Assembly: GCA_004794655.1 (NCBI GenBank)
Contig: SMMW01000125.1
Coordinates: forward strand, 1,201,501-1,265,500
Length of the DNA stretch: 64,000 nucleotides
From: Marisa cornuarietis
Taxonomy: Eukaryota; Mollusca; Gastropoda; Architaenioglossa; Ampullariidae
Direction of reading: 5' to 3'
Part shown: piece by piece, positions 14,227-62,937 of the stretch
Numbering within the stretch: the first letter of the stretch is position 1
Layout: each line of letters opens with the position of its first letter
Notes under the pieces: model-generated
What the model was told of the DNA's origin: nothing
Databases searched by the model: none
Seen by the model: the letters and a program-made list of their open reading frames with translations, nothing else
Translations under genes and position numbers: made by a program

Positions 14227-14566
14227 GTGAGTAGTACAGCGTGTGATGTGATGATAGACACACAGGTAGATGGCGCTCGCTTGTATCTCATAATCACCAC
14301 CAGGTGTGTAACAGGTGATAATTCCTCAATGGTTGTCACACCTGATGGAGGTGTTGTGATGCAGGTAAAAGTAGATTTGTTGTTACATCGGCTGTTACAC
14401 AGATTGTGTAACAACACGTGTCATTATTTTCATTTACATAGTGTATGTAATGACGTCACTAATCGATGACGTCACACACTACACACAAACATAAACACAC
14501 ATATTAGTGACAGTACACAGTGTAACACGTGTATCTGACCCTCTGTAACACTCATGTCTGTGACAG

Positions 14567-14922: not shown

Positions 14923-15246
14923 GTAGGTGTGGGTATTGTGTAGTGTAACGTCTGTTGACAGGTGAACAGTTAACAATGTTATAATAACAAGCAGGTGAGA
15001 AACAGTTTTGTTAAGAAAATAGTGTGTTAGTCACGTGTGTCTGTCATGTCATGTCTGTAGCACTATAGTATTGTACTTAGTTATTTCTTTATTTTTGCGG
15101 AGGGTAGTTCGGTCGATCAGCTCCCAGGACTGTCTCTTCCCACGCCGGCCACAATAATAGTCAACCTTGAAATGTCCCGCGAGTGTCTACTGGTGTCTAC
15201 ATCCCCTGTCACCTGACCCAGTTGGTGTAGCAAGACCCAACGACCC

Positions 15247-16700: not shown

Positions 16701-16749
16701 TGTCTCCGACATGTGACTTACACAAGAAACTCACTTTGAATTTTAACAG

Positions 16750-17093
16750 AGAATGTCACGACAACAGCCACGACCGTGACCCCCACCAGCGGCGGCACAA
16801 CACCACCCAGCCTGCAGTGGAGAGACGTGCTGGTGTTGAACAGGGGTAACGTTAGGGACGACTCGGGTATGGTGGAGGCGCTTAAAGAAGCGGGTATTCC
16901 AGTGCGGGTGATGAAGGATGATGACATTGAAGACGTGGCCACGGCCCGCAGTGACGTGGTGTGGGTGGCTGATGGAGGTCGTGTTCAGGGTCTGGAGAGA
17001 AAAGTCGCCGTCTGTCTGAATGAGATAGATTCAGCCCGACTTAACTACATGTCCCGCTGTACGTCACAACTTGTGGTTGTCTCCCTCTCTTGA
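16750..17093 (+). pseudogene. Last helicase-like exon of the truncated copy
   Basis: It starts after taacag and encodes LQWRDVLVL, EAGIPVRVMKDDDIEDV, ARSDVVWVADGG, GLERKVAVCL and MSRCTSQLVVV, ending in TGA. The frame is intact and in the same phase as exon 8 of the functional-looking copy, but it cannot be reached in frame because of the upstream deletion. Confidence 0.75.
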
Positions 17094-39305: not shown

Positions 39306-39740
39306 CAAACCATGTGTCTGTCAGTGTGTACGCTGTATTTCCGACTTGTGACTTACACAACAAACTGACTTTGAATGTTAACAACGAATGTCACAACAGC
39401 CACTACCAGAGGTGACACAACACCACCCTGCCTGCAGTGGAGAGAGGTGCTGGTGTTGTATTAGCAACGAATTAAGGGTGACTCGGGTATGGTGGAGGCA
39501 CTAAGAGAAGCGGGTATTCCAGTGCGAGTGATGAAGGCTGATGACATTGAGGACGTGGCCACGACCCGCAGTGATGTAGTGTGGGTGGCGCGTGGAGATC
39601 GTCTTCGTGGTCTGGAGAGAAAAGTCGTTGTTTGTCTGTATGATGTTGATAATCTTGTCCGACTTCGGCTGATGTCCCGGTGTACTTCACAACTTGTTCT
39701 TGTTACCCCTGTTACCTGTAGCCGGCTGTTACCCGATGCA
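39306..39740 (+). pseudogene. Relic of the last nuclease-helicase exon (third copy)
   Basis: It aligns with 38020-38490. The acceptor taacag has become taacaa. An in-frame TAG at 39462-39464 follows DVLVL-like coding. Downstream it still encodes EAGIPVRVMKADDIEDVATT, RSDVVWVARGDR, GLERKVVVCL and MSRCTSQLVLV. It has one EAGIPVRV block, like the truncated copy. No other exons lie next to it. Confidence 0.75.
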
Positions 39741-40790
39741 GTCTCGTGTCTGTCTCTCGTACATCAACACCTGTCTTCATTTTTATATTTTCCTCTCTAT
39801 CATGACTCATGACGTTATACACATGACACAATCATATTTTCTCACAACAGTCTATCGTCTGAAATAAAATCTCTTCCTGATTCTCGTCAATTATCAGTTC
39901 ATCTTGATGATATCATGTTAGTGCGTGCGTGCGTGTGTTTGTGTATGTGAATGTGTGTGTTCATTCGAGTTCTAAAGAGGTGTGGTTTGGCTGGTGTATT
40001 AAAGTATTAAAAGGGTTAATGCAAGCACTAAAGAAAGAAGAGCCTTTCCCTGGAAACGAACACTTCGGGTTTCAAGCTATTTATCATGAAGAGAATGAAG
40101 AAATAAGTGATACTAGAAAGTCTTGGCATATCGCTTTGCAGACTCGGGTGTTTTGCTATCTAGTCTGTAGTGAAAACAGAGAAATGCAATATTGTATTTA
40201 TTAGAATATTCGGGAAACGTTAAACATAGAGCATTTAAGTTAAAAAGCTAACAAAACTTAATCAAATGAAAGATCATAGCTCATACACACACCCCATACA
40301 CTCACACAAAACACCCACGCTTTCTCTATTTCCCCTCTCTTACACACGCGCACACACACACATGCGTGCGTACACACCATTAATTAAACATCCCCTATCT
40401 AAGGTCGCACATCTCACTCAAGCCAATCAGAAAGGAAGTATTTACCATGTAGCTTAGACATTATGTAACTATTGTGTGGTTGTGGCATTTGAAGACAGAG
40501 GAAGACGACATAGTAAAGAGAGAGTGTGTGACGGCCAACCATTTTGCAGAACTAAACTTTTTGGAAGTAAAAACAGCTTTTCATAAAAAAAGTGTAATTA
40601 AAGTAATTAAAATTACACTAGCACTAATGTTTACGCAAATAAAAAAATTAATAATGGGACATAAGTCTTTCGCTTCATATTTCCCAGATATATAGCCTCC
40701 CTTAGCAACCTCAAATAGTCAATAAATATGAAAATTGTCAAACTTATATAGAACGTGGCAAATATCAATAAAAGATAACACTACGTCAGG
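39741..40790. other. Unassigned spacer
   Basis: No gene recognised. Short frames (39929-40204 and others) have no domain. A CA-rich patch lies at about 40285-40365. Confidence 0.3.
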
Positions 40791-43149: not shown

Positions 43150-44684
43150 GTTTGGAAACTATAAGAGGAGAGTGTGGTTCACAATATAATTTTCCTTTAG
43201 TGTTCACTTCCGTTGGTACTGATGCAGTTGAAGGGAGTACAAGCTTAACATGCACTGGAATTCTCGCCTCAGCATGAAATATATATTTTTGTGCCATCTG
43301 GAACTCTTGCGTGGGGCTTTTATACATTGTCAAACAATGACCAACGGGTTTCAAGGTGTCCATGTCGATCATTTCGCCCTGAGCTTGAAATGGCTAAACC
43401 CACAATAAGAGTCTTAACATCATTATAGGTGCTGAAGACATTTTTGCAAAGTCATTAAACCTTATAGCGTGCGAGTGTTTTTTCAGCAAAGTTCATTCCA
43501 GTAAAAACAAAACAACAAAACACCCGTGACTGTTTGTTCACATAACTGGATTATAGCCAAACTAGTGTGTCATAAAAAGCAAGAACAATAAAATATGGCA
43601 GAGGATCGTTGTTTGTTTTTAACAAAACAAAAATAGAAACTGCAGCCAACATCCACAGGTACGTCTGCTCAAGCTGTCAGACACACACACACACTTTCTC
43701 TCTCACTGGTATGCTCATATTTAACATGTCAGATACACTCACGCACGTTCAGACTGATGTATAATAAGATGTATACAGGTAGACATACAGAGGCTTGCTT
43801 AGCTAAAGCAGCTGTCAACATTTCTCCAAGGTGTGCGAGCCAACTACCCTCAAGTGAAGTGAGCAGTCGGCTGCCCAAACAAAACATCAGTCGGGTGCGA
43901 CTTCTGCCATTTGTTTTGTCACAGTTATCTTCTACTTTTCTCTAAAAAAAGTCTGTCTTTATGTCGCTTTCTAGAGACTGATTTGTACTCAGCTGAGTAA
44001 ATAGCCGGCCATAGGACTGAAGGTATAAAGAAGTTTAGCTGCCTTCAACTCCACTCATTCTGATGCCTGTCGTCTGCAAGTGTTTTCAGAATCTAAAGGT
44101 GTGCAGATCAGGGGAAGGTGAGTTGTTTTCATTATGAAAGCTTGGTTCCTGACTACCGGGTGCTGCTTCCAGTTGTTGTCAAGAGAAGGAAGTTGACCGT
44201 CCCTCCATCCATTTCAAGTAACAGCTCCTGCTTCCGTCTTCTTTGTGTTAATCATTTCGCATCTTAATGTCCAGGTTACCAGTTGAGGGAGGACATTTTA
44301 GTTCTTCCAGATCGATATGTCAACATATATAGATGTATAATGCGAACCAGCGTTTTCTGCTATTGTTGAAAAGTATAGGTGTAAGTGTGCAAGAAGGCCT
44401 GACCAGGCTGAAAAGTCAAAGTGTATTTGTGATATTGTATGAGAGAATTCGACAGCCTGAAAGCATGATGCTGTAATATGGTGGTAAGGCATTCTACAGT
44501 AATGTACTAAATCATGATACAGTAATTTGGCGAATAATAACTAAATTCTTTCTCAATTAATGACAAGCTGCCAAATGCAAATGCTCATCTCCCTAAATCT
44601 TAGCCATAGAAAAGTGGTGATTAATTTAGCAAAACAAAGGGTTACAAAAACCTATTTCAGAGACATCTTCAGTAGTTTACGGAA
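43150..44684. other. Spacer between C1q-type genes
   Basis: No exon recognised. I searched for the missing C1q half after 43149 and did not find it. A minus-strand frame (43130-43372) is open but unplaced. The region would contain the promoter of the large C1q gene; I see no clear TATA box. Confidence 0.35.
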
Positions 44685-44769
44685 ATGGCCATCGTTCATC
44701 TGGTACTGTTGATGACTTGCGCCTCATTCTCTAACACTGATGCAACAGAGAGCAGAAACATCTCCACTG
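44685..44769 (+). CDS. C1q gene exon 1: signal peptide
   Basis: It starts at ATG in ggaaatgg and encodes a hydrophobic leader followed by NTDATESRNISTG-type residues. It ends after one base of a codon at gtaagt. Confidence 0.8.
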
Positions 44770-47700
44770 GTAAGTTTGGAAATGTGTATGTATGCTGGTA
44801 TGTAAGACTGGTGATGTGCATGTATGATGGGTGGTATGTCTGATGACAAGTATTGTAATATGTATTGTAATGTGTTTGTGAGGACACTATGGTAATATGC
44901 ATGCAAGATGACATATATATTTATATAAGAATTGTAATATTATGCATGATGCTATATACATGTGATGATAACTACAATAATGTACCAATAGTATATTGAT
45001 GTATGGTGTTATGTGAGCAAGGTGACATATATCTATATATGGTGATAATGTATTTTAAGTAATTAACATGTGTATATGTGGGTGGATGGTGAGTGTGTGT
45101 GTGTTTTAGGCCTTTTTTGAGTAAATGTACAGGTATATATTTATAAGTGTATATTTTAAAAAATCTGTATGTGTGTAGGTGGGTCTACCTGCAATAATTT
45201 GCTTTTCAGTGTGTGTGTATGGGCATGCGTTAGTGCACTTATTTAAAAGCCCTGTAAATATCTGTGTATGAGGATGATTGGCTCTAAAATTTATGTGAAT
45301 CTGTAAAATGTTATTTTGTGAATTTGTTTATATCAGTATATATGTGCATATTTTTATGTTTGTTAGCATATGTGTTTTTCACTGTCTGTAAGCATGTGTG
45401 CTGCCTGCATGTAGGTGTGTGTACCAGCATTTGTACATACAGGTAAATGTCTGTGTAAGAATGTTTGTGTGTGTGTGTGTGTGTGTTTGTGTGTGTGAGA
45501 TGTTAGACAATGACAATCAATGAACTGCTTTTGATGACGACCATGACTTTGGTGTTTAACAGATGAAGTTGACATCAAAAACAAGACAGGTAAGAACGGT
45601 CATGTGGTTACTCAGTGTCTGATGTTATGTGCATTATGTGGGTGTTTAGCTACCAATACTATCAATATATCACTGGTGTGTAATGGTACCTGCACATGTA
45701 TATTTGTGTGTTTGTTCTGTGTGTTTATCAGTGTATACTTTTTTTGGCATGCATGCAAATGTCTTGGTGAATCTCAGTGTATGTGTATGTGTGTGTCTGA
45801 GTAAGAAGGAAAATGTCTACAAATTTACTTTTACTGATTATGACGATGAGACTGCTAATAATGTCACCTGGCTTGAAATGATTAACATTGGGTGGGGGGT
45901 GGTGTGTGTGTATGTGAGTGTTTTCTTGTGTGTAAGAATGTTTTTGTATGTAGATCTTTTTGTTGTTTTAAGTCTGCAGATATGCGTTTGTAAATTCTTA
46001 ATATGTTTTTCTAATTTTTTTTAAATGGGGGAGAATTATTCAGCATAGCCTTTTTTGGTGTTAAACAGATGCAGCAAGCACTGAAATCATAGAGACTGGT
46101 GAGAACTTCCACTTATATTTTAAATATCTGTGAGCGTGTGTATGTATGTGCATCAATAGGTCTTCCTGCAATTATTTGTTTTTCAATGTGTGCAGGGGCA
46201 TGGGTTAGTGCATTGATATTTAAGGCCTGTAAATTTCTGAGTATGTGAGGATAATGCACAATTAAATTTAGGTATCCCGATAAGCGTGTATCTAGGTGTG
46301 TTTAAATGTGTGTATTTATATTCCATTTATATTTATATATGTGTATGTCTTTTTATGTATCTATGTGTTTTTCTCTGTTTGTAAACGTGTGCTGCCTGCA
46401 TGTGAGTGTTGGAAAGTGTCTGTGTGAGTGTGTGTGTTATGGAAGACAATGCCAATCAGTTAACTGCTTTTGATAATGACCGCCTTTTGATTTTTGTGTT
46501 TAACAGATGAAGCAGACATAAAAAATGAGACAGGTAAGAAAGGTCATGTGGCTGCTCAGTGTCTGAGATGATGTGGGTGTTTATCTAATAGATCATACTT
46601 AACATCTTTTGACCAAACACCATCACCAATGAAGAACTCCACCGAAGAACTGAAACCGAATCCATCACCACGCAGGCTCAACGAAGGCGTTGGCGATGGA
46701 TTGGACATGTGCTCCGCCAGCAGACAGCAGACCTCTCCAGAATCGCCCTACGATGGACTCCAGACGGCCGAAGAAAACGAGGTCGCCCAAAGGAAACCTG
46801 GAGAAGAACAGTGGAAAGGGAGATGAAAGGAAAAGGCTGGACATGGGGTCGCCTGGAGCGAGTTTCAGCAGATCGACATCAGTGGCGGGCACTGGTTGAG
46901 GCCTTATGTGCAACTAGCACGAAGAGGATTGATTGATTGATTGAATATCTAATAGATTGCTATCAATGGATCTCACATTGTTCTATACTTGTACCTACAC
47001 TAGCTAGTGCATTTGTGGGAAAAGCCGATGGCCGACTGGTGTCAAAACTGAGAGCACGCTGGTTTGATTTCCGATAAGCCATAGCGAACTTCCCCCAGTT
47101 GACCCAGCTTGCGGGAATGGGTACCTGACACCATAGAGGGTTGGGGAGGGTAAAACAGCAAGGGAGAGGAGATGGGCACCGCCCTCATATAAAGCTGGCA
47201 TCTGTGTGTGTTTTTTGTTTGTTTGTCAGTGTGTGATGTTCACCTTTCTTTGTGCATGTAAGTGTTTTGCTGAGTCTGAGTGTGTATGTGTTTGTTGGTG
47301 TGTCAATAATGGCATTTCACTGTTACTGACCCTGATTTTGGTATTAAACAGATTCAGGAGGCACTGAAATCATTCAACCTGGTAAGAACTGTGTGAAATT
47401 TCTTGTGTCTGTGCATGAGTGTATGTGTGTTTAACTGCTTTTGTGAGTGTCTGGAAATATTTATGCGATTGTCTGTGTGTATTGTGTGTATGTGTTTGTG
47501 AGAGAGAATTGTGTTTCTGTTTTTCTGTCTCACTGTGTGTTCCTATATATATTTATAGGCATGTCAAGTGTGTGAATGTTAACTGCTTTTGATGATGACC
47601 TTGTCTTTGGTATTTAACAGGTGAAGCTGAGAGAGAAAATGAGACAGGTAAGCAAGATCACTTGATTTCTCAGTGTCTGATGCTATGTGGGTGTTTATCT

Positions 47701-50700
47701 AATAGAATACTTTGAATATGTCAGACATAAGTATATAATGGTACCTACACATGTGTATATGTGTGTGTTCTGTGTGTTTATCCACGTATGCACCGTTCTT
47801 TGTGCATGCATGTAAGTGTCTTGGTGAGTCTCAGTGTGTGTGTGTTCAATACACAATGTCCACAAATCTACTTTCACTGCTTATGACGATGAGGCTGCTA
47901 ATAATAGTCACCTGGTTTTAAATGAATAGCATTGAGTGTGTGTGGGTGTGTATGTGTGAGTTTCCTTGTAAGAATGTGTATGAAGGCCTTTCGGTTTTTT
48001 TGTGTCTGCAAACATCAGTTTGTAAATTCTTTATAACTATTTACATTTTTTTGAGGGTTAAGGGAATTAGTAGTAATGACTTTGTGTTTTGGTGCTGAAC
48101 ACAGATGCAGCAAGCACTGAAGTCATAGAGACTGGTAAGAACATTCACTTAAATTTTAAATATCTGTGAGAGTGTGTATGTACGTGTTAATGAGTCTACC
48201 TGTAATTATTTGTTTTTCGATGTGTGAGGTGCATGTGTTAGTGCACTGACTTTTAAGGCCTGTAAATTTCTGAGTATGTGAAGACGATGCACAATTAAAT
48301 TTAGATATTCCGATGAGTGTGTGTTTCTGAGTGTCTTGATATGTGTGTATTTATATGGGAATTTATATATATATATATATATGTCTGTTTGTGTATGTTA
48401 ATATATGTGTTTTTTCTCTATAAATGTGTGCTACCAGCATTTGTACATGCATGTAAATTTCTGTCTGGGGATATGTGTGTGTGTTATGGAAGACAATGCC
48501 AATCAGTTAATTGCTTCTGATGATGACCTTGACTTTGTTATTTAACAGATGAAGCTGACATCAAAAACAAGACAGGTAAGCAGGGTAACCCAGCTGCTCA
48601 GTGTCTGAGGTTATGTGAGTGTATATCTAATAGATTACTGTCAATATATCACATATTGGTATGTAATCATTATTGTACCTACACTAGTGCATTTATGTAT
48701 TTGGTGTTCGTGTTTGTCAGTGTGTGCGCAGTCCTTTGTGCATGCATGTAAGTGTCTCATTGAGTCTGAGTGGCTGTATGTGTGTGTGTGTGTGTGTGTG
48801 TGATGGGTCATGTCTACAAATCTACTTTTACTGGTAATGACCATGAGATTGGTCACCTTGCTTTAAATGAATGGCATTGTGTGTGTGTTCATGTATGTGT
48901 GTGTGTGTATGTGTGTGTGTGTGTTGATGTGTCAATAATGCCACTCCACAGTTACAGTTATTTACCTTAATTTTGGTATTTAACAGATTCTGGAGGCATT
49001 GAAATCATCCAACCTGGTAAGAATTTTGTTTAGGTATGAAATATCTGTGGATTGTTTCTGTGCATGTTTGTATGTGTGTTTAACTGCTCTTGTGAGTTCC
49101 TGAAAACATTTATGTGTGTGTGTGTGTGTGTGTCAGTTGACTGGAACTCATGATGACCTTGACTTTGGTGTGTCACAGGTGAAGCTGACATTAAACACAA
49201 GACAGGTAAGTGTAATCCTTTGGTTGTTGTGTGACAGGTCGAAGTGACTCTAAATGGCTGTGAGGGGTGTGAATAGTTTGGTAATTTTTTTGTTGAATAT
49301 TACTGATGATGATGATTTCACTGTTTATATGTGTGTTTGTATTAATTTAATTTAAAGTGTATAATAGGTAATAGTTAATAGGTATAAAAATCTTTGTGCG
49401 TGTGCGTGTTTCTTCATCAGAATGGACGTGCATGAGGACCTTTTTGTTGTTTTATGTCTGCAAACATCAGTTTGTAAATTCTTTATAACAATTTATATTT
49501 TTTTAAGGGTTTGGGGAATTATTAGTAATGACTTTGTGTTTTGGTGCTGAACACAGATGCAGCAAGCACTGAAGTCATAGAGACTGGTAAGAACTTCCAC
49601 TTATATTTTAAATATCTGTGAATGTGTGCTTGTACTTGTCAATGAGTCTACCTGTAATTATTTGTTTTTTAATGTGTGTTGGTACATGTGTTAGTGCACT
49701 GATTTTAAAGGGCTGTAAATTTCTGGGTATGAGAAGATGATGCACAATTAAATTTACATATCCCGATAAGTGTGTGTTTATGTGTGTATTTATATATGCG
49801 TTTATATATATATATATATGTCTGTTTGTGTACGAGATGTGGCAGAAAAGTAATGAGACTATAGCAACACTGCAAGTGATCTGGAAGGGGAAACGTCCAC
49901 AAAGAATTTGTTCCTCCAGGACAAACTGTCTACCAAGTATTTTTTTATATAGATATCCTTGAAAGCTCAGAAAAAGGGTCATTTGCATGAGACCAGACAT
50001 TGCAGACAAATGGATGCTCAATCATGACAATGCCCCATGTCACACTGCCCTCTCAGTCACAGAATTTTTGACATCAAAAGACATTCCTGTGGTTCCCCAA
50101 CCCCCCTATTCACCTGACCTCAGCCCCTGTGACTTTTTACTTTTTCCTAAACTGAAAGACGTCCTCAAAGGATGTCATTTCGGGACTTTAGAAAACATCC
50201 AAAAGAGTGTAAGGGACATGGTGAAGACCATACCGGTTGAAGACTTCCAGCGCTACTACCAAAAGTAGAAACAATTAAATGTCTCCATCGGTGTGTAGCT
50301 GCCCAAAGGAACTATTTTGAAGGGGCCAACATTGATGTTTGAAAAAAATAAAAACTTTGGTTAATAAAAAAACAGTCTCATTACTTTTCTGCCATACCAA
50401 ATATGTTAAGATATGTGTTTTTCTCTGTAAAAGTGTGCTACCTGCATGTCAGTGTGTATACCAGCATTTGTACATGCATATAAATTTGTGTGTGTTTGTG
50501 TGTTTGTGTGTGTTATGGAAGACAATGCCAATCAGTTAACTGCTTCTGATGATTACCTTGACTTTGGTATTTAACAGATGAAGCTGACATCAAAAACAAG
50601 ACAGGTAAGCAAGGTAACCTGGCTGCTCAGTGTCTGAGGCTATGTGAGTGTTATATCTAATAGATTACTGTCAATATATCACATATTGGTATGTAATCAT

Positions 50701-50935
50701 TATTGTACCTACACTAGTGCATTTATGTATTTGGTGTTTGTGTTTGTCAGTGTGTGCGCAGTCCTTTAAGCATGCATGTAAGTGTCTCATTGAGTCTGAG
50801 TGGCTGTATGTGTGTGTGTGTGTGTGTGTGTGATGGGTCATGTCTACAAATCTACTTTTACTGGTAATGACCATGAGATTGGTCACCTTGCTTTAAATGA
50901 ATGGCATTGTGTGTGTTCATGTGTGTGTGTGTGTT

Positions 50936-50981
<46 letters not shown>

Positions 50982-51172
50982 TGTGTTGGTGTGTCAATAA
51001 TGGCACTCACAGTTACAGTTATTTACCTTAATTTTGGTATTTAACATATTCTGGAGGCATTGAAATCATCCAACATGGTAAGAATTTTTATTTAGGTTTG
51101 AGATATCTGTGGATTGTTTCTGTGCATGTTAGTATGTGTGTTTAACTGCTTTTGTGAGTTCCTGAAAACATT

Positions 51173-51214
<42 letters not shown>

Positions 51215-52824
51215 TGTGTGTGAGTTGACTGGAACTTGAGATCATGATGACCTTGACTTTGGTGTTTCACAGGTGAAGGTGACATTAAACACAAGACAGG
51301 TAAGTGTAGTCCTATGGTTGTTGTGTGACAGGCTAATGTGATTCTAAATGGCTGTGAGGGGTGTGAATAGTTTGGTAATTTTTTTGTTGAATATTACTGA
51401 TGATGATGATTTCACTGTTGATATGTGTGTTTGTATTAATTTAAATTGATGTGTAGGTATAAAAATCTTTGTGTGTGTGTGTTTCTTCATAAGAATGCAT
51501 TTGTATGAGGACCTTTTTGTTGTTATGTGTCTGCAAACATCAGTTTGTAAATTCTTTATAACAATTTATATTTTTTTGAGGGTTTGGGGAATTATTAGTA
51601 ATGACTTTGTGTTTTGGTGCTGAACACAGATGCAGCAAGCACTGAAGTCATAGAGACTGGTAAGAACTTCCACTTATATTTTAAATATCTGTGAATGTGT
51701 GCATGTACATGTTAATGAGTCTACCTGTAATTATTTGTTTTTCGATGTGTGTAGGTGCATGTGTTAGTGCATTGATTTTTAAGGCCTGTAAATTTCTGGT
51801 TATGTGAAGATGATGCACAATTAAATTTACGTACCCCGATAAGTGTGTGTTTATGTGTGTCTTTATATGTGTGTATTTATATGTGCGTTTATATATATAT
51901 ATATGTCTGTTTGTATACGAGATGTGGCAGAAAAGTCATGAGACTATAGCAACACTGCAAGCGATCTGGAAGGGGAAACGTCCACAAAATAGAATTTGTT
52001 CCTCCAGGACAAACTGTCAACCAAGTTTTTTTTTATAAAGACATCCTTGAAAGCTCAGAAAAAGGGTCATTTGCATGAGACCAGACATTGCTGACAAACG
52101 GATGCTCCATCATGACAATGCCTCATGTCACACTGCCCTCTCCGTCACAGAATTTTTGACATCAAAAGACATTCCTGTGGTTCCCCAGCCCCCCATATTC
52201 ACCTGACCTCAGCCCCTGTGACATATTTTTTTTTCCTAAACTTAAAGATGTCCTGAAAGGATGTCGTTTCGGGACTTTAGAAAACATCCAAAAGAGTGTA
52301 ACGGACATGCTGAAGACCATACCGGTTGAAGACTTCCAGCTCTACTACCAAAAGTAGAAACAATGTCTATCGGTGTGTAGCTGCCCAAAGGAACTATTTT
52401 GAAGGGGCCAACATTGATGTTTGAAAAAAATAAAAACTATGGTTAACCCTCTTGGTTCGAGATAAAAAAATAACATTTCAATAACTGGCTTCTAACTGAA
52501 GACTGTGAAGATGACAGTGGGTGAAGTTTGTTTTTTTATTATTGCTGCTCTGAGATAAACATTAGACCAAGAAACCTATACATTTTTGGAAAAGAGAAAA
52601 GTTGAACTTTGCAATAAAAAGTAATGAAAATCGCCTTGCCTGTGCTACCCGGCAAAGCCACGATCGTGGCCTTTCAAACCAAGAGAGTTAATAAAAAATC
52701 AGTCTCATTACTTTTCTGCCACACCTTGTATGTTAAGATATGTGTTTTCCTCTGTAAATGTGTGCTACCTGCATGTCAGTGTGTTTTCCAGCATTTGTAC
52801 ATGCATATAAATTTCTGTGTTGGG

Positions 52825-52865
<41 letters not shown>

Positions 52866-53856
52866 GGAAGACAATGCCAATCAGTTAACTGCTTCTGATG
52901 TTGACCTTGACTTTGGTATTTAACAGATGAAGCTGACATCAAAAACAAGACAGGTAAGCAAGGTAACCCGGCTGCTCAGTGTCTGAGTCTATGTGAGTGT
53001 TATATCTAATAGATTACTGTCAATATATCACATATTGGTATGTAATCATTATTGTACCTACACTAGTGCATTTATGTATTTGGTGTTTGTGTTTGTCAGT
53101 GTGTGCGCAGTCCTTTGTGCATGCATGTAAGTGTCTCATTGAGTCTGAGTGGCTGTATGTGTGTGTGTGTGTGTGTGTGATGGGTCATGTCTACAAATCT
53201 ACTTTTACTGGTAATGACCATGAGATTGGTCACCTTGCTTTAAATGAATGGCATTGTGTGTGTTCATGTGTGTGTGTGTGTGTTCATGTGTGTGTGTGTG
53301 TGTGTGTGTGTTCATGTATGTGTGTCAGTAAAGGCACGCCACAGTTACAGTTATTGACCTTGATTTTGGTATTGAACAGATTCTGGAGGCACTGAAATCA
53401 TCCAACCAGGTAGGAATTTTTATTTAGGTTTGAAATATCTGTGGATTGTTTCTGTGCATGTTTGTATGTGTGTTCAACTGCTTTTGTGAGTTCCTGAAAA
53501 CATTTATGTGAATGCGTGCATGTGTCTATGTGTGTGTATGTGTCTATGTGTCTATGTGTGTGTATGTGTCTATGTGTCTATGTGTGTGTGTGTGTGTGTG
53601 TGGTAGACAGTATGTGTCAGCTGACTGGAACTCATGATGACCTTGACTTTGGTGTGTCACAGGTGAAGCTGACATTAAACACAAGACAGGTAAGTGTGGT
53701 CCTGTGGTTACTGTGTGACAGGTCGATGTGACTCTAAATGGCTGTAAGGGTTGTGAATAGTTTGCTAATTTTTTTTGTTGAATATTACTGATGATGATGA
53801 TTCCACTGTTTATATGTGTGTTTGTATTAATTTGAATCAATGTGTAGATATAAAAA

Positions 53857-53907
<51 letters not shown>

Positions 53908-56900
53908 TGACAATGTCTACCAATCAGTTTTTATTGATTATGACCTTAAGGTTGCTAAGAAAGATTCCCTTGGTCTTGAATGAATCCTATTGTGTATGCT
54001 GATATATATGTTTGTGCGATACATGCATGTATCTGTGATTACTCTTTATCTGTATGTGAACTTTTATTGACATGACCCTATAGTAATAAACATGTTCTTA
54101 ACATTCATGGCTTTTCCAGACGCAGTTTGTAGCTGTTCCAACGTTTTACAGTCAGACCCATTTGATGAAGAGGCTGTCATTCTTAAACTTAAGCTAGGTT
54201 AGAAAGACTCTATTTATTTCTTGTAGATATGTATGTGTATATGTTTTGTACAAACATATAGCAAGGAAGACTTCAACACATATTGTCCCAAAGACAATGT
54301 CTTGGTAACATCTTCCATGATGATGTTATTTTTAACTTTGGCTCTGCTATTTCAGTTTAGTGTAACATTCAATCAGTTGACTAAGTTACATAAGGTCAGC
54401 AAAATTTGTTGCACAGTGTGGCGCATATCTGTTGCTGTAACTTCTAACTCTGTGGCACTGGTGATGATTTTTGATTTCGTAGCTATGACCAGTTCAAAAG
54501 AGCACACTAAGTTGAAGTCTGCACTCCGCGTCTTAAGACGAGTGGTGACAAGAGTGCAAGCAGCATCTGGTAAGAACTGTTAAAAAAACTTGTTTCTCTC
54601 TGTGTTTGTGATTGTTAATCAATCTTGTGCGTGTATTTTCACTTGTGAGCTAAGAGGATTCAGGTCAGTGAACATCAGATGACCACACCGAGACTTCCAA
54701 AACAAAAAGAGAGAAGGACTCAGGCTGGACATTGTATATCAAAGCTTTTATTGGTCATCTTAGGAAAGTATGGATCTAGAAGATAGAAGAGAAAAAATAT
54801 AAATAAGAGCATGTGTAGATTTTACACTGTGTAAAGTATAAGATGCTGTGAAGTGTAAGATGTATAAAGTGTAACATAGTGCAAAGTATAAAATGGTGTA
54901 TAGTCACAAAAACCAACATCATCTCATTCAGCTCACTCCATTTGTTTCTGTCTTGCTCTCACTCTGTCTCACACATTGTCTTTCACACACACATTCTCCT
55001 CTCACTTCCTCTATCTTTGTTTTTACAGCAGATCATGAAGGAAAAGCAATCATGAAGTATTAAACTTACAGTATATGTAATTACAATATATATATATATA
55101 TAGTTTATGTATAATTACAATTTATGCACAACACAAATTTCTGGAGTGGAAAATTTCTGTTTATCTGAATCTGTGGAATATTTCCTTTTCTCATGAATTC
55201 TTGAATTCCCCCTAGGATGTAATTCTGTTTGAACTGAAGAGTGATGCGAATGATATCAGTATATAAATATTTGTTGTTCTATTTAGGTACTATGAGTGTT
55301 TACCTATTGATAATGTCACTACATGTGTGTGTATATATATATATCTTGCTCTTGCTAGGTAGTATGCCTTTTCACCTATTGATGTCATTATATAGATATA
55401 TTTATATGTTGCTCTAGGTAATATGCCTTTTTACCTATTGATTTTGTGCATGCTGATAGTCATCTTTATTTGGGATGAAACTGTTATCTGTATATAACCC
55501 TTAGCTTTTCCTGCAGTGATTCCTGTGTTTTAAGATTTTGGTTGTCTTCAAAGAAGTAAATGATTGTGCCTGTAAAGGTGTGTGCGAATGTGTGTGAAGT
55601 GTAAGTGTGCATGCATCTATATATGAGTCTATATATATCTGATGCCTCTATGTGCATATCTGTATGGTTAATCTGTATGTGAACATAAGTGTGTGTGTGT
55701 GCATACACAAATCCTTAACCTTCTGGCTTTCCTGGATACAGATTCCATAAAGGCTTTGACCTCCAGACTTGACACACTGCAGGCAGCTGTTGATGGCGTA
55801 AAAGCTCAAACCAGTGAGGCACTTTCTACAACTAAGTGTAGTGTAATATGTGTGTATGTGTGTGTGTGTTTAGGGGGGAGTTGTATGTGTGTGTGTAGGT
55901 TCATAGCCGTGTCCTGGGCAAATGACAAGGGTGTTTTCCTGTGAAGTGAGAGACTGATGTCATGAACACAAAGATAGGTAAAAAATAGTAAACTGTTTAT
56001 AAATTTAGGTCAGAAATGGTAAACTGTTGATAGAACTTTAGCATTTCCATCCCATGCTCTTTTTTTCTTCTTGTCAATCCACTATCCTGTGTATTTTGAT
56101 GTCAGGTTGTGGTAATGAATCCCAAGTGTGAATGCAGCACAAAGTAGAAAGACCTCAGTAGTACTTCTCCATAGCGCCACCTATCAGCTCGCTACAAGAG
56201 CTCATTTATGGGCAGACAGAAAGAAATGGATGAGCGTGTGTTGTTTATATATCATGGATGTCAGATATAATGCATATAACTGTATAGGTGAGTGGGGGGT
56301 GAGAGAGGGTGGTTGTGGACACTCACAACCTTGGTATGGAGAAGATTGATGACCTTGACCTTGGTTTCACACAAACAGATTCGCTATCACCCTTGACCTC
56401 CAGAATCAACACATTTCAGGCTGATGTTGACGACTTAAAAGCAAAATCAGGTAAGAAACTTAAAATTTTATATCTGCGTTTATTTGTTTGTGTGGGTGCA
56501 TGTGTCCTTGTGAATGCATTTATTTGTTGTAGTAAATGAGTTCATCGTAGTTAATCAGAGTTAACTAATGTATCATAGTCAGTGTATCAAGATTAACTGG
56601 TGTATCATAGTTGGTGTCAATTATGACTTTCTTCATAACTTCAATGCTGACAGGTGAAGTAGTGGATCTCAAACTGACTGTCAGTAAGCTCGTACAAAAC
56701 GTCGACACCATGAACACAACGATAGGTAAGTAAGGTCAAGGTTTTGTCAAATTCACATGCATGGATAGACAAATGGTGAAGAGCTTGTAGACAAGATGAC
56801 ATCAGAAACAGGTGTGATACAGGACAAGTCCGGTGCATATTTTTTTCCCCCGATGATTGAGTAAAGCTCAGTGTAAGATTTCCCAGATCTTGCTGAACAT

Positions 56901-57755
56901 ACCTCTTCAGTTCTCGAGATACATGCCTCTTGCGATGGATAGGAAATTATCACATATTTAATTTAGAGTAATTTTTATGTATTGAAGCATGAAAGTCATA
57001 AAACAAATTTATTTACAATTTTAATGTATACTGCTTCCCTTAAATTATGTGTGTGTGTGTGTGCATGCGTGCAGGGTCATTTTTATATATGGAAAGATAT
57101 TTTGATCACTTATATGACCAGCCTCAAGCTCAGTAGAACTCATAAGAACTACAGCTCTGCTCTTTCTTCTGATATCCTCATTTTCATGTGGTGAAGATGC
57201 CTTACTAACATTCAAAACTGCTAACATTTTCATTTTTTCATCATAATATCTCCCTACTAAAATTGTATTTATGTTTTCACTTGAAATATCCAATATTTTG
57301 TTCAGAAACAGATCCATTTAGAAGCAAAAAACAAAATTTCATATTATCTCTTGTCTACAGGCCTTCTTGATCAACACATCTATTTTATGACCACCTTTAC
57401 TAACTTGACCTTAAGACTTGAGCCTGGCCTGGTGGTGTTTGACCTGGTCCTGACCAACACAGGTGATGCCTACAATGTTACCACCGGGGTCTTCACGGCG
57501 CCTCGTCATGGGGTCTACATCTTTTCTGCTCAGTCTTTCTCACAAAGCTCTACTGATGCAAACTGGGATTTCTATGTCAATGACCATCTGGTGCTACGTT
57601 CCAGGCTTGTCACAACGACTGACACCAGTCACAACTACGTGGTCCCTGTGACTTTACAGGCTGGCGATCACATCTACATCAAAAGCCGTAAAAGCTTTGG
57701 CATTTACGGAATCAATCACAGCTTTTTCAGCGGATGGCTGATCAAAGCCTTTTAG
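44685..57755 (+). CDS. Secreted C1q-domain protein with microexon-encoded stalk, about 437 aa
   Basis: Exon 1 (44685-44769) gives a signal peptide (MAIVHLVLLMTCASFS) and an NIS sequon. Then come 17 microexons (45563-53689), helical exons 54120-54197, 54483-54569, 55742-55813, 56379-56450 and 56654-56725, and the C1q exon 57361-57755. Every internal exon is a multiple of 3 and every junction is phase 1, so the whole reads through (437 aa if the one microexon with a broken acceptor is skipped). The three 72-bp exons are similar to one another (LTSRLDTLQAAVD, LTSRINTFQADVD) and suggest a coiled coil for trimerisation. C1q-domain proteins of molluscs are often pattern-recognition lectins; that role is inferred here. 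The gene is convergent with the C1q gene at 61087-64000. Confidence 0.8.
45563..45589 (+). CDS. Leading A microexon (27 bp)
   Basis: Encodes DEVDIKNKT in phase 1; acceptor aacag, donor gtaaga. It is the only A exon outside the four-exon blocks. Confidence 0.8.
46069..47647 (+). CDS. Microexon block 1 (B 46069-46098, A 46507-46533, C 47352-47381, A' 47621-47647)
   Basis: The block encodes DAASTEIIET, DEADIKNET, DSGGTEIIQP and GEAERENET. All four have acceptor AG and donor GT and are phase 1-1. Both A-type exons keep a sequon (NET). A LINE tail (46594-46945) has been inserted in the intron between A and C. Confidence 0.8.
46594..46945 (+). mobile_element. 5'-truncated RTE-like LINE tail with 12-bp TSD
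   Basis: The insert encodes ITTQAQRRRWRWIGHVLR, then RIALRWTPDGRRKRGRPKET and HQWRALVEALCA, the very C-terminus of an RTE-like RT, and ends in an attgattgattg tail. The flanks tatctaatagat (46582-46593 and 46946-46957) are perfect duplications. Sister units of the microexon array carry the undisturbed target. Confidence 0.85.
48105..49205 (+). CDS. Microexon block 2 (B 48105-48134, A 48549-48575, C 48987-49016, A' 49179-49205)
   Basis: The block encodes DAASTEVIET, DEADIKNKT, DSGGIEIIQP and GEADIKHKT. It is the shortest and has no transposon, so it shows the empty sites: the mariner target TA at 48394-48395 and the LINE-tail target tatctaatagat near 48625. Confidence 0.8.
49557..51299 (+). 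CDS. Microexon block 3 (B 49557-49586, A 50578-50604, C 51048-51077 broken, A' 51273-51299)
   Basis: B and A match block 2. The C exon at 51048 has lost its acceptor: aacag has become aacat, and its last codons also changed (QP to QH). Skipping it keeps the frame because its length is 30. A' encodes GEGDIKHKT. A mariner copy sits between B and A. Confidence 0.8.
49833..50401 (+). mobile_element. mariner copy 1, internally deleted
   Basis: TA dinucleotides flank the element (49831-49832 and 50402-50403). The terminal inverted repeats share tggcagaaaagtaatgagac. The interior keeps the second half of the transposase (49987-50268): HDNAPCHTA, then PPYSPDLSPCDFLLFPKLKD. The spacing between these two Asp residues is D34D, the mariner signature. 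The N-terminal helix-turn-helix and the first Asp are missing, so it is not autonomous. Confidence 0.9.
51630..53689 (+). CDS. Microexon block 4 (B 51630-51659, A 52927-52953, C 53380-53409, A' 53663-53689)
   Basis: All four exons have intact splice signals; the C donor is gtagga. It encodes the same peptides as block 2 with small changes. A mariner copy containing a piggyBac-type MITE lies between B and A, at the same place as in block 3. Confidence 0.8.
51918..52728 (+). mobile_element. mariner copy 2, paralogous to copy 1, carrying a nested MITE
   Basis: It has the same ends, the same internal deletion and the same place in its block as copy 1, so it was copied by the tandem duplication. 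The transposase remnant has an extra frameshift at the PPY region (cccccata). It is longer because of the 241-bp insert at 52447-52687. Confidence 0.9.
52447..52687. mobile_element. piggyBac-type MITE with TTAA target duplication
   Basis: The insert is flanked by ttaa at 52443-52446 and 52688-52691. Its ends are short inverted repeats (ccctcttggtt and, inverted, ctctcttggtt). Copy 1 of the mariner has a single ttaa at the same point. TTAA targets and ends beginning CCC or CYC fit the piggyBac superfamily. It has no coding capacity. Confidence 0.8.
54120..54197 (+). CDS. C1q gene exon after the stalk
   Basis: Encodes DAVCSCSNVLQSDP and DEEAVILKLKL. Two Cys (CSC) could form interchain bonds below the coiled coil. 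Acceptor tccag, donor gttaga (weak). Confidence 0.65.
   Translation, partial: TQFVAVPTFYSQTHLMKRLSFLNLS
54483..54569 (+). CDS. C1q gene helical exon
   Basis: Starts after cgtag and encodes a basic amphipathic helix (KEHTKLKSALRVLRRVV). The 87-bp length and phases fit; the acceptor is not strong, so the 5' edge is the least certain in the model. Confidence 0.55.
54598..55741. other. Intron with a threefold repeat near its end
   Basis: No exon found. Between about 55262 and 55445 a unit of about 60-80 bp (taggtantatg..ttacctattgat) occurs three times. TA repeats lie at about 55088 and 55332. Confidence 0.5.
55742..56725 (+). CDS. C1q gene: three 72-bp coiled-coil exons
   Basis: Exons 55742-55813, 56379-56450 and 56654-56725 are each 24 codons, phase 1-1. 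The first two clearly share ancestry (DSIKALTSRLDTLQAAVDGV against DSLSPLTSRINTFQADVDDL). The third reads GEVVDLKLTVSKLVQNVDTM and ends NTTIG, a motif also found before the C1q exon of the neighbouring paralogues. Confidence 0.75.
57361..57755 (+). CDS. C1q gene last exon: C1q domain
   Basis: After ctacag it encodes LRLEPGLVVFDLVLTNTGDA, the YNVTTGVFTAPRHGVYIFSA strand typical of C1q, NWDFYVNDHLVLRS, LQAGDHIYIKSR and the closing HSFFSGWLIKAF. Length (about 130 residues) and the G-x-F-x-A-P, G-x-Y-x-F and F-S-G-W-L motifs match the C1q family. Collagen repeats, present in vertebrate C1q, are absent; the helical exons take their place. Confidence 0.9.
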
Positions 57756-57879
57756 ACATGACCTAATTTTCTGATACAAGTCTTTGAAAACTATATAAGT
57801 TGTGCAAAATGTCTGAGCCTGAAAGGATGCACTAAAGACACAGGAAGTAATGGTTTTATCACCTAGACCAGGAAGTTAT

Positions 57880-58115
57880 GGCACAATTAAAACACAGTCC
57901 AACTATTAACTCGTTTAACTGTCTCACTTACTGTTGCACTAACTCACAATGTCTGATTGACTTTCACTTACTGTCACAGTATTTACCACTCATTGTCAGA
58001 CTGACTCACATTTGCTATCAGACTAACTTACAATACCACACTAACTTGCACTTATTGTCATACTAACTGAAACTTGCTGTAGCAGTAACTCACCATTCCT
58101 CACTAACACACTTTT
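57880..58115 (+). repeat. Degenerate short repeat in the 3' UTR region
   Basis: About nine loose copies of a 20-28 bp phrase like actaactcacacttactgtc follow the stop codon. Confidence 0.6.
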
Positions 58116-58149
58116 TATCACAATAGCTCAGTACTTACAGTATGCATTC

Positions 58150-58155
58150 AATAAA
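58150..58155 (+). terminator. Polyadenylation signal AATAAA for the large C1q gene
   Basis: First AATAAA after the stop, about 395 bp downstream. Its use is inferred. Confidence 0.5.
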
Positions 58156-58159
58156 AGAT

Positions 58160-58950
58160 CATGCCTCACTCAATAAGAAGGATTAAACTCTGATACAGAT
58201 ACAGAATTTGAGGCTTTGATGAAAAAGTATTCTTTGAGGCTCAGAAATGGCGACAGTTTGTAACAGTGATAAAATACAGAGAAAAATGTGCACATGGAGT
58301 TAAATCCTAATTAAAATCGAATGTTCGATGATGACAAAACTGCCTTGGCTGAAATTTTGCAAAACGAATGAAGGGAGAATGTTCAGCAGTGCAGCAGTGC
58401 AATGCTATCTTAGAATGCCTTTATGTCTACAAGTCTCTTATGCCAACACAAAAGCATGGCTCCGCTCACACGAGAATATTTGCACACACTCACACATGCA
58501 TTCATAGACAGGGTGCGTTTTTCAGAGAGATGCAGGGAAGAGAACTGGCAAAGTAGGCAAAACAAGTAGCTTCACAGAAATGAAAGCAGAGCTCAGCAGA
58601 CTTGTATTAAATGCAAGCACAAGCAAGAAGTGAGTGCAGAGATTGACTGATTGACTAACTGATTGACTAGGAAGAAAGGGAGGTAAGAGTGTATAATTAT
58701 CATGCATAGATAATCAGGTATTGCAATCAATCTTTACCAACATGATTGTTTCTGATTTTGAATTCATAAAGTAGACATAATGACAGGTTTCATTTTACAA
58801 TATTTTCATGTGCTGAAGCTAACAGTGTATAAAGTTTCGCAAAAGGTTCATATTTTCTTTCAATATATCTAACTATTAGCTTCACAGCATAATACACAAT
58901 GCAGTTCATCTTCTTCAACTGCTTTATATACAGGACACATGAAGTCCTCT
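58160..58950. other. Unassigned intergenic sequence
   Basis: No exon or known repeat seen between the two C1q genes in this part. Confidence 0.35.
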
Positions 58951-59358
58951 ATAGAATATTTCTTGAAACAAAATAACTCACTGCAATGTTTGTAATAAAC
59001 TCTCTTCCTTTCCATATCCGCCACCTTCCTACAACTGAATCTTTCAGATCTGCACTGAAAACGCACCTCTTCCTTGAGCATTACTCCTAACACAGTCCAC
59101 ACAATGCTCGTCCTTCTTAACCCCGCCCCCTTCCCTCTTGCTACTTTACCCATCTTTCTCGCAGAATCACTATATTTCTCTGTTCCTGTTACTTGATGCC
59201 TTTTGTTTTCTGTTTTGTCAGTACTGTCGTTTTCTTTCGTCCCCTTTGTTCTGTATCTACTTAGTCCATGTCTCTTCCTCGTTTTAAGCGCTAAGAGCAT
59301 GCTCTCTATGAGTGTGAATATGCGCTATAAAAATCTTCACTATTATTATTATTATTAA
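58951..59358 (+). mobile_element. CR1-like LINE 3' end
   Basis: The plus strand encodes LPTTESFRSALKTHLFLEHY before a stop, the usual last residues of CR1/L2-type ORF2 ('SFKxxLKTHLF'). It ends in gaatatgcgctataaaaatc followed by an att repeat (59341-59357), the usual tail of such elements. It is strongly 5'-truncated. Confidence 0.7.
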
Positions 59359-59873
59359 TACCCATTCTAAATTTAGCCATGATACTCTGCTACTGAAACT
59401 CGAAAGTTCGCTGTTAGATATCTTTGAACACTAAGGAAAATGTCATGTGGAGAAAAACAAGCAGAATTTGTCACTACCATTAATATGACTATTCCAATCC
59501 TGTCATCTGCACACAATCATTTGAATTGCAGACAAAGAAAGAAAAAAATGACAAGGTTACATTTTATTTCCTCACTGTAATTTATTTTTTTCTTTTGAGC
59601 ACCAGTCATAGAGGAGAGGTGTGCACTGTTTAAACGTGTTCTTTCACTCAAAGATCATAAGTCTAGTCCATAGAAAATATAGTGAGGAAGTACACGGTGC
59701 AGAAAGCAAAATAAATAAAAAAAAAATGTGGGGTCTGCAGAGAAGAAGCAAAATTTTCAGTGAAGTGGAGCATAATTAATCTAAGATATGCAGATAGGAT
59801 GGGCAAGACAGACTAGATTACAGAGACCGTTAGTAGGCAAACTGAAACACAGGCATATAAAGAACAATCCAGA
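59359..59873. other. Unassigned sequence
   Basis: No feature recognised. Confidence 0.3.
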
Positions 59874-59886
59874 ACATTGGTAACAA

Positions 59887-60835
59887 TTAACCCTAAAGTC
59901 ACCACCCTAAACATCTCTATTTCACCAGCAGAGAGAAAAATAGCTATAAAACCAGCAATAAAAATAAGGTGGCAAGAAAAATACAAAAATGAAGGTATAG
60001 GTACTAGAAGACTGATAGACGACCAGCCTAGTCTCACCTTGATGTACCTAAAGTCAATCAGGTCGGACCAAACTAAAATAACCAGAATGAGGCTTAGTGG
60101 AGAATATTATAAAATGTATAAAGACCCACCTTCATGTGCCTGTGGGGACAGACTTAGCACCCCGCATGTACTGTTGGAATGCAATGAAAATAAACCAAAG
60201 AGAGAAGAACTAAAACATTTCCTAGATAAGTATAGACTGGGGCTAAACCTCAGAAACTGCCTCAACCCACCTAAAGAACTATGGAACAGTATACTGTCAC
60301 TAGTAGTAGTAATAGCAACAAGCCACCCAAACTCTAGTCTAATATAAAATAAGAATAGGGGTAAACAGGATAACATAGCCATCCACACTGAAAAAATAAA
60401 ATAAAATAATAATTAAAAAAATTGAGGAAGAGCAATACATGGAACCCAACAAAGAAACACAATACACCACCACGGTACATGTGGCAGGACCCCTAAACAC
60501 TGGCAACAAACGGCAGCAGCACCAGCAGCAGCAGGAGGAAAGAGGGCAGCAGCACTGTAACGACCCATGCAAACTTGGCAGATCAACAATGGATAAAGAG
60601 GGCACAAATACAGTACACCACCCATGCAGAATTGGAAAACCTTAACACCATGAAAAATAGAGGGCACGTACAAAAGTGAAACCACGCATCAGGCACCACA
60701 AAACAGCAACCCTTTCCCCACATCTCCCCATACCCTCACCCACATCCCCAACACCCACACTCCCCAAAGACCCCATCCCCCACAGTGCGAAATCACCGAG
60801 AGGTGGAAGCACTTTCCCTTTCAAAGTCAACAACA
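59887..60835 (+). mobile_element. 5'-truncated LINE with SINE-like 3' tail and 13-bp TSD
   Basis: The open frame to 60347 encodes a LINE ORF2 C-terminal part ending in CACGDRLSTPHVLLEC, a Cys/His motif of the kind found after RNase H or RT in I-like and related LINEs. About 400 bp follow, then gtgcgaaatcaccgagaggt, ggaagcactttccctttc and a caacaacaac tail. Perfect 13-bp repeats acattggtaacaa lie at 59874-59886 and 60836-60848. So the whole 949 bp inserted as one unit, and the tail shared with the SINE at 9879 belongs to this LINE. Confidence 0.8.
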
Positions 60836-60848
60836 ACATTGGTAACAA

Positions 60849-61086
60849 CCCTACAAAGACACAGGTTAAAGGAAGAAATCATAGGGGACAAAAATCCACA
60901 GCCTAAATAAAAAAACAAACTGCAGTCTTCTCGTGCTAGTGAGGTGAAGGGCATGAACTTGGGTATCACCAGTGGTGACAGTGACAGGGACAGACGTTTT
61001 TATTTTTTGAAAATCAAGATAAAGTAGGTGCTTGTTTTCCTGATCAATGGAGAGCTTTTGTTAGTTATATTGTTTAGTGTATCTCT
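60849..61086. other. 3' flank of the minus-strand C1q gene
   Basis: Contains a minus-strand AATAAA-like signal (plus-strand tttttatttt at about 60998-61007) about 80 bp beyond the stop codon. Confidence 0.45.
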
Positions 61087-61502
61087 CTACCCCTCGTAAG
61101 ACTTCACAAGCCACCCAGAGAAGAAGCTCGCGCGATAGCCCCAAGTTTTAGTTGGCAGTCTGCTGGAGATTAAGACCTTGTCTTGAACATTAAGAGATGT
61201 GACATACACCGACACCAGACTTTGGTCAGACGACGTCTGGCTCCTCGATCGCATCGCCTTGTAGCTTTTACCAGATCTCTCGTAAATATACAAATCCCAG
61301 CTGAGGTCTTGTACCCCATCAGAGAAACTCTGAACCGTGAAGACGTAGAGGCCGTGGACAGGCGCCGTGAAGTAGCCTGTGTCAGGGTTGTATCCCTTGC
61401 CCACGTTTTCCATGACATAGTCGAAGACCACAGTCCCGGCAGGAACCATAACTCTATCTTTAGATAAAGTAGCACGAAACATGACTACTTTCTCAAGACG
61501 AC
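61087..61502 (-). CDS. Second C1q gene last exon: C1q domain
   Basis: Acceptor tttcag at 61503-61508 on the minus strand. About 138 residues with the C1q motifs G-Y-F-T-A-P, G-L-Y-V-F and F-F-S-G-W-L. Confidence 0.9.
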
Positions 61503-62889
61503 CTGAAATAAAGAACACTGTTTTTAATACCAGTATTTTATACGAAAACAACTTTTTCTCATGCATTTAACAAAGCCAACTTGTCTTTAGCGTTTTTCAC
61601 CAAAAGATTTAGAGTTGGTATTTAATTGTTTCGTAGTTGCCCTCATAGAAAAATTTTGTTCTAAACTGTTTTCAGGGATCTGGTACGGTCATGGCTAGCT
61701 ATTTCATATCCTATCTCTCATGCATATACCGCACACCAAGGCCGACCACATACACAACCCCCCCCCCCACACACACACACTCTCACTCACACATTAACCC
61801 ACACATACATCTAGTCTCACTTTACAGTAACCACCCACACACTAAATATAAACATGAACTTCACCCTTTATATGTAGCAATTACCAACACTACTGAAAAA
61901 CATGCACTTCTAGACTTTAAATATACCACCTACACACATACACTAAACACACACACACTAAACACAAGCATGAACACACAATACGTACCATCTGCACACA
62001 AATCACGAACATGTTTCGATGTACTCACATTTACAGATCATGGTACATAAATAAGTGCCTACAAATATACAAATATACAGTCGTTATTTGTCCGTACATA
62101 CAACCAGCGAGTGTTCCAACAACAGAAATGTTACTGTTCTTACCTATCCTCGACTGCAGCTCCCGTATCTCTCCCTGGTTAGCGTCAAGTGTCGATTGCA
62201 AAGCTGTAAAATTCTCCTCCGCTACCCTCGCATCTAAGAGATCATAAACTTTAATTTTTTTTGTCATATATCATCACAAAGAAATTCTCTTTCAAATACA
62301 CAAAAACAAAAGCACAGGGAAAACACAAACAGACACACTCACACCCACTAACTAAATATAAAAACATATTATTATGATCAGATGGCAAATTGATTTTGTC
62401 AAAGTCACATACAAATCATTTTGAATTAGTGCCATAATGGAAACATCTCTTTCATATTGTGAATTTGAATTAACAAGACTTCTCATAATTGAGTATTTGA
62501 CAATTCTGTACACCAAGGCCAAGATTCAACAAGGTTGAACATATACAAACAAGTAAACGCACCTACACGTGTCGCCTACACACACTGAGCACAAAAAGGT
62601 ATGGAAGTGAGTTCATATTATACAATGGTGGTATATAAATGTATGAATACAATATACGCATGTCCACAATCCTTGATGTCATGTAGCAACAAAACTTGAA
62701 CTTTTATTTAACCGATCTTGGACTGCATGGCGTCGATACTTCCCTGGAGAGTGTCAACCGTCGATTTTAAAACCGTAAAATTCTCCTTTGTTACTGCCAC
62801 ACCTTAAATATCAAGCTCATTATTCTTTATTCTGTATTAGAATGCATTATCAAATAATTCCATTTCAGACAATTATAATTGCAAGCACA

Positions 62890-62937
<48 letters not shown>

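Follow-up and report, generated by a model that had tools for sequence, protein, structure and literature searches.

The exon architecture considered here has published counterparts in schistosomes. In the SmPoMuc genes of Schistosoma mansoni, as the available part of the report presents them, a signal peptide is followed by nine-residue repeats specified by a 27-bp exon; this exon lies in genomic repeats of about 1 kb, arranged in tandem and separated by microsatellites, with up to about 20 copies per gene, and variable repeat number, predicted glycosylation, splice variants and trans-splicing are all reported (PMC2576457). Antigen 10-3/MEG-4 has alternatively spliced 27-bp exons and 81-bp repeats (PMC4015677), and the excerpts available for the schistosome MEGs describe runs of short exons, mostly multiples of three bases in length, together with exon skipping (PMC4015677, PMC3961193, PMC10526429). 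In the Ampullariidae the C1q family is expanded and forms tandem clusters, as summarized in the accessible text (PMC13336756), and Nanopore long-read transcriptomics exists for Pomacea canaliculata, by the same kind of partial account (PMC13365339).

The window analysed, a stretch of 64,000 nucleotides (64 kb) from Marisa cornuarietis, carries on the plus strand, at 45563-53689, an array of 17 units that measure 27 or 30 bp each and follow the pattern A(BACA')x4. The first-pass annotation had taken a tandem microexon array of this kind to be undescribed, which was too strong: SmPoMuc was published with tandem 27-bp exons (PMC2576457), so that the architecture is known, and antigen 10-3/MEG-4 (PMC4015677) likewise precedes the present case. 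The snail A and A' units resemble SmPoMuc in being tandem 27-bp exons that encode nine-residue repeats, with N-X-T present as a motif only. The SmPoMuc repeat is a single exon, however, whereas the snail array alternates 27- and 30-bp units, and SmPoMuc is a mucin of a snail parasite for which the accessible text mentions no C1q domain, whereas the snail protein has one. The resemblance to the schistosome MEGs lies in tandem short units with lengths that are multiples of three, all 17 of them phase 1-1 in the snail; microexons make up as much as 75% of MEG coding sequence, in contrast to about 34% of the snail gene (453/1314 nt in a 16-unit model), and in the available portions of the MEG reports, antigen 10-3/MEG-4 included, a C1q domain again goes unmentioned. 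With molluscan C1qDC proteins the Marisa protein shares a C1q domain placed after a helical part, and it differs from them in its microexon stalk. No description of a microexon array in snail or C1q genes was found in the literature searched, at the level of titles and abstract openings. What is new here is the snail C1q setting, the lineage-specific amplification of blocks and the sense-biased UG tracts in the introns; an architecture described for a snail parasite is thereby encountered in a C1q-type recognition protein of the snail itself.

The best explanation of the locus, to which we give a probability of roughly 0.7, is a working gene for a secreted C1q-domain protein, with a stalk built from tandem, frame-neutral microexons that have multiplied by duplication and can be skipped. 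From its N-terminus such a protein would comprise a signal peptide, a disordered acidic stalk able to carry N-glycans, a coiled-coil-like helical part and a C1q head. Since every unit is frame-neutral, exons could be skipped or lost with a change in stalk length and glycan number only, and stalk length may in turn bear on binding. Three other explanations are weighed below where the evidence touches them, and they are compatible with, not exclusive of, the preferred one.

The gene model and its seventeen units

All exons of the model lie on the plus strand and all junctions are in phase 1, giving 447 residues with 17 units and 437 with 16. Exon 1 (44685..44769) carries the start codon and a signal-peptide-like segment and ends in phase 1; the N-terminus reads as hydrophobic, and in the P. 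canaliculata relative discussed below a helix is predicted at residues 2-27 with low confidence. The array lies between this exon and six downstream ones, which are exon 19, four short and probably helical exons and the C1q exon. Exon 19 (54120..54197) has 26 residues and is phase 1-1, and its counterpart is missing from isoforms X3 and X6 of the relative. Exon 20 (54483..54569; 29 residues) is probably helical, in keeping with a helix in the low-confidence model of the relative, and exons 21 (55742..55813), 22 (56379..56450) and 23 (56654..56725), of 24 residues each, are coiled-coil-like. Exon 24 (57361..57755) supplies the C1q domain and the stop codon. The identification of a C1q-domain protein from the letters is borne out by Pfam, in which the spliced model matches C1q with E 3.4e-14 (53.6 bits, the curated cut-off being 23.7), and by a search of PDB sequences with the C1q exon, which returned 24 matches at E <=0.001, headed by cerebellin-1 and complement C1q chains. 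Classical complement C1q has a collagen-like region before the head, whereas no collagen family was detected by Pfam at E <=0.01 in the snail model or in the P. canaliculata relative (P0001).

The A units, of 27 bp, are found at 45563..45589 (A0, DEVDIKNKT), 46507..46533 (A1, DEADIKNET) and, with the shared translation DEADIKNKT, at 48549..48575 (A2), 50578..50604 (A3) and 52927..52953 (A4). The A' units have the same length and lie at 47621..47647 (A'1, GEAERENET), 49179..49205 (A'2, GEADIKHKT), 51273..51299 (A'3, GEGDIKHKT) and 53663..53689 (A'4, GEADIKHKT). B and C units are one codon longer, at 30 bp: B1 (46069..46098, donor GTGAG) reads DAASTEIIET, and B2 (48105..48134), B3 (49557..49586) and B4 (51630..51659) read DAASTEVIET; C1 (47352..47381) and C4 (53380..53409, donor GTAGG) read DSGGTEIIQP, C2 (48987..49016) reads DSGGIEIIQP, and C3 occupies 51048..51077. 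A scan of 44000-58000 for an AG, 27 or 30 bp open in phase 1 with a final G, and GTRRG recovered 16 array units and one match within exon 20 (54543-54569). When further units were sought on both strands of the 64-kb window with up to eight mismatches, three matches appeared at positions other than those of the array units, at 14070, 34257 and 45669 (minus), none of them with both splice sites.

Of what had been claimed of the array at first sight, the number of exons (17), their lengths (27 or 30 bp), the pattern A(BACA')x4 and the uniform phase 1-1 are confirmed. The further claim of a separate AG and GT for every exon held for the donor, which is present in 17/17 units, and failed for the acceptor, which is present in 16; the exception is C3, where AT stands in place of AG and which is for that reason missing from the scan. 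C3 is probably skipped, or else an AG inside it serves as acceptor for an exon of 21 nt (GIEIIQH), which also stays in frame; skipping it leaves the frame intact and yields the 437-residue product.

Over all 17 units the stalk has 161 residues, of which 46 are D/E and 16 K/R, with a pI of 4.2 and six N-X-T motifs, these being found in 6/9 A/A' exons. The 38-residue module was rightly called acidic from the outset (pI 4.3, 10 D/E against 4 K/R), and the N-X-T motifs make N-glycosylation of the stalk plausible. A structure model of the P. canaliculata relative, computed from a five-row alignment, has a low overall confidence (mean pLDDT 51.9), with a stalk at pLDDT 23-34, then helices at about 50 and then a beta fold; it is relied upon here for the C1q head alone. 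Foldseek found 223 matches to this model in the PDB at E <=0.001, and the 50 of the 223 that were listed are C1q-family domains.

The Pomacea canaliculata relative and the question of skipping

The closest relative found is P. canaliculata LOC112575859, an uncharacterized C1q-domain protein. Searches with the whole model (7994 candidates scored, those sharing most words) and with its C-terminal part (1388 candidates) led to the identical three records, isoforms X2, X3 and X6, and to none other among the candidates scored; the three clusters concerned hold 4, 3 and 1 member sequences, and it is these three isoforms that were examined. When the relative is divided at the Marisa exon borders, its alignment to all seven non-array segments is free of gaps, with 21/28 identical residues for exon 1, then 20/26, 17/29, 20/24, 17/24 and 18/24, and 105/131 (about 80%) for the C1q exon. 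Its own exon borders are inferred from protein, the isoform differences supporting those of the exon-19 counterpart and of one unit only.

Divided by protein alone, the stalk of LOC112575859 resolves without remainder into nine units of 8-10 residues, which in order are DEADFENAT, DSASPEIIQP, DEAVINET (the one unit of 8 residues), DEADFENAT, DSASPEIIQP, DDAVIKNET, DAASTEVAET, DEADVKSDT and DSGHTEINKP, and which by best score are of types A C A A C A B A C. In X3 the stalk comes to 84 residues with four N-X-T motifs. The relative thus has the protein layout of the Marisa gene outside the array, both the A and the B/C types of unit and an acidic stalk with N-X-T motifs, and it differs in having nine units, ACAACABAC, in place of A(BACA')x4, with no amplified four-unit block. 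On this division the two lineages have amplified different units, ACA in P. canaliculata and BACA' in Marisa, so that the array would turn over while the 27/30-bp format stays.

The isoforms bear directly on skipping. X3 contains a single 9-residue A unit, DEADVKSDT, that X6 lacks, and X2 contains the 26-residue exon-19 counterpart that is absent from both X3 and X6. All three are gene models from a database; isoform models in RefSeq are built on RNA-seq. Because a single whole A unit is all that separates X3 from X6, frame-neutral skipping is already present in public gene models, which lends support to the initial proposal that units can be skipped without a frameshift; in Marisa such splicing would be expected by analogy.

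It is possible, though clearly with less than an even chance, that the units are instead spliced constitutively, tandem duplication having produced a long repetitive stalk and skipping being functionless noise. The AG and GT of 16/17 units fit constitutive splicing, the difference in stalk length between the genes (161 residues in Marisa, as given above, against 84 in X3) needs no regulated splicing, and predicted isoforms can themselves be noise. It is less easily squared with P. canaliculata models in which a whole A unit, and likewise the counterpart of exon 19, is either present or absent; the loss of the C3 acceptor suggests that loss of a unit is tolerated, and is compatible with constitutive and skippable units alike. 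With this architecture, stalk length and glycan number could change through splicing and also through the number of blocks. A direct and cheap test is offered by two related genes that differ in block unit, together with a parallel format.

Duplication history and constraint on the units

The units of the array resemble one another across types by more than chance. A profile of A/A' units with their flanks matched 7/8 B/C units (five with E <=0.002 and two at 0.018 and 0.039, B3 being unlisted), and a B/C profile matched 9/9 A/A' units (seven with E <=0.0041 and two at 0.028 and 0.063). The idea that the two types are unrelated is rejected on these reciprocal matches, and because the profiles cross-match all units appear to be homologous and to descend from one exon. 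The A/A' profile also matches two places outside the array, 56347-56373, just upstream of the exon 22 acceptor (E 0.0079), and the end of exon 1, at 44684-44786 (E 0.0048); a trace of the source of the first microexon is a possible interpretation of both.

Introns A0-B1, A1-C1, A2-C2 and A'1-B2 cross-align at 71-75%, and the four-exon block is therefore probably two copies of a 30+27-bp exon pair. Against such a step, B-A and C-A' introns align at 61-65% only, and introns A'3-B4 and A'4-exon 19 align with A-type introns at 50-62%; A'3-B4 and A'1-B2 are 72% alike. The introns thus lend the pair step weak support. The repeating unit of four microexons recognized in the first-pass annotation thus stands as far as the order (BACA')x4 is concerned, although the unit itself is probably composite. 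The array would accordingly be envisaged as having grown by tandem duplication through unequal exchange: one exon would have become, probably by way of a pair, a block of four, and this block would in turn have been multiplied to four copies.

Judged by their introns, blocks 2-4 are young: the A-C introns are 95-96% identical and the other within-block introns 88-94%. Among the exons of these blocks A2, A3 and A4 are exactly alike, as are B2, B3 and B4, and the C and A' exons are 0-3 and 0-1 bases apart, respectively; as these are recent copies, the likeness of the exons is partly a matter of youth. The B3-A3 intron holds an insertion at 49834..50396 (plus strand, ends approximate), which we take to be a mariner-like element, with 21-nt perfect terminal inverted repeats, an apparent TA target and a partial DDE domain (DDE_3, E 3.5e-06, 27.4 bits, just below the cut-off of 28.6). 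A copy stands at the same place in block 4 (51919..52728, plus strand), agreeing with the block-3 copy at 516/556 aligned bases and carrying extra sequence that brings it to 810 bp against 563 bp; the corresponding place in block 2 is empty.

Over the unit trees, parsimony places 28 changes at 57 exon sites against 213 at 196 flank sites (conditional binomial p about 1e-5, a contrast that misalignment of flanks may inflate), so that by this count the exons have changed less than their flanks. The splice dinucleotides account for 1 change at 8 sites, which is the C3 acceptor, and donor positions +3 to +5 for 2 at 6. Within unit types, 13 chained comparisons showed no length change where the flank indels would predict 3.4, a modest difference.

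These patterns weigh on the suggestion, which we hold to be unlikely, that the array is decaying, in which case blocks 2-4 would be functionless intronic duplications of recent date and splicing would use block 1 or a few units only. Decay would find a natural place for the lost C3 acceptor, for the insertions lodged in block-3 and block-4 introns and for a retrotransposon-like stretch at 46613-46933 in the A1-C1 intron (recognized by eye, with Pfam match absent). Yet frame, length and GT donor are kept in 17/17 units, and the A and B exons of blocks 2-4 are unchanged while the introns around them differ by 4-12%, a point that is limited by the variation among the C and A' exons. That near-identical repeats were misassembled and the number of blocks inflated is more improbable still, for all the likeness of blocks 2-4 and the fact, given in the accessible text on SmPoMuc, that repeats of such kind prevented assembly (PMC2576457), in view of an AT confined to C3, the extra sequence in the block-4 insertion, TG tracts of differing lengths and within-block introns of blocks 2-4 that are 88-96% identical.

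UG tracts, splicing control and the rest of the window

Throughout the gene (44685-57755) runs of TG are biased towards the sense strand, with 26 (TG)5+ tracts against 1 (CA)5+ tract, and 18 against 0 in the array alone; the region 1-44000 has 6 against 7, and 57756-61095 has none of either. The contrast between gene and 1-44000 has a Fisher p of 6e-4, which serves as a guide only, since duplicated blocks do not supply independent tracts. In 11/17 units the acceptor is preceded at 46-83 nt by the end of a (TG)4+ tract, and by type this applies to 5/5 A, 3/4 C, 3/4 A' and 0/4 B units. UG repeats close to splice sites are bound by TDP-43, which can favour either skipping or inclusion, according to the available part of the source (PMC3985631). 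By analogy, and more speculatively, the UG tracts upstream of the acceptors may promote skipping through a TDP-43-like factor.

Two forms of RNA pairing were also considered. A (UG)n-(CA)n hairpin within the array is ruled out, the array introns being without a (CA)4+ tract. Docking intron pairs of the Dscam kind are unsupported by the inverted repeats of 44685-54200, where 32 pairs were found; the 25 longest, which are those listed, are mostly transposon ends or AT-rich stretches, and a few pairs of 16-24 nt at 79-88% remain.

A bolder extension of the preferred reading, and one that we regard as doubtful, is that the gene is a host-side counterpart in the snail of the schistosome polymorphic mucins, combining a germline microexon array, expanded independently in each lineage by different block units, with stochastic skipping driven by sense-strand UG tracts ahead of the acceptors and with allelic variation. 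Were this so, one gene would give rise to a population of lectins that differ in stalk length and glycan number, and alleles would differ by UG tract length and block number.

A second C1q-domain gene lies at 61096-64000 on the minus strand, convergent with the array gene and running off the window. It is best matched by a fragment of 142 residues that has no name (67%) and, among named P. canaliculata proteins, by one at 37%; the latter figure, with the roughly 80% identity of the array gene's C1q exon, argues for a species other than P. canaliculata or for a paralogue. Array-type units were not found in 61096-64000, where upstream exon-like pieces can be made out by eye; the plus strand there carries 0 TG and 3 CA tracts, so that this neighbour is UG-rich in its own sense direction. 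Elsewhere in the window, 2598-7541 holds ORFs that resemble those of non-LTR retrotransposons and contain endonuclease and reverse transcriptase domains, and at 20004-24177 a 42-bp satellite is repeated about 100 times, both strands having long open frames. Three ORF fragments at 16740-17090, 38066-38488 and 39465-39809 are alike by eye, sharing an ARSDVVWVA-like stretch, and have no Pfam matches. The segments 13759-15109 and 33946-35308 form a 1.36-kb duplication, 93.6% identical, in which a P-loop ATPase is weakly matched at scores under the Pfam cut-offs, and an ORF at 29821-30639 contains a NERD nuclease-related domain (E 9.8e-06).
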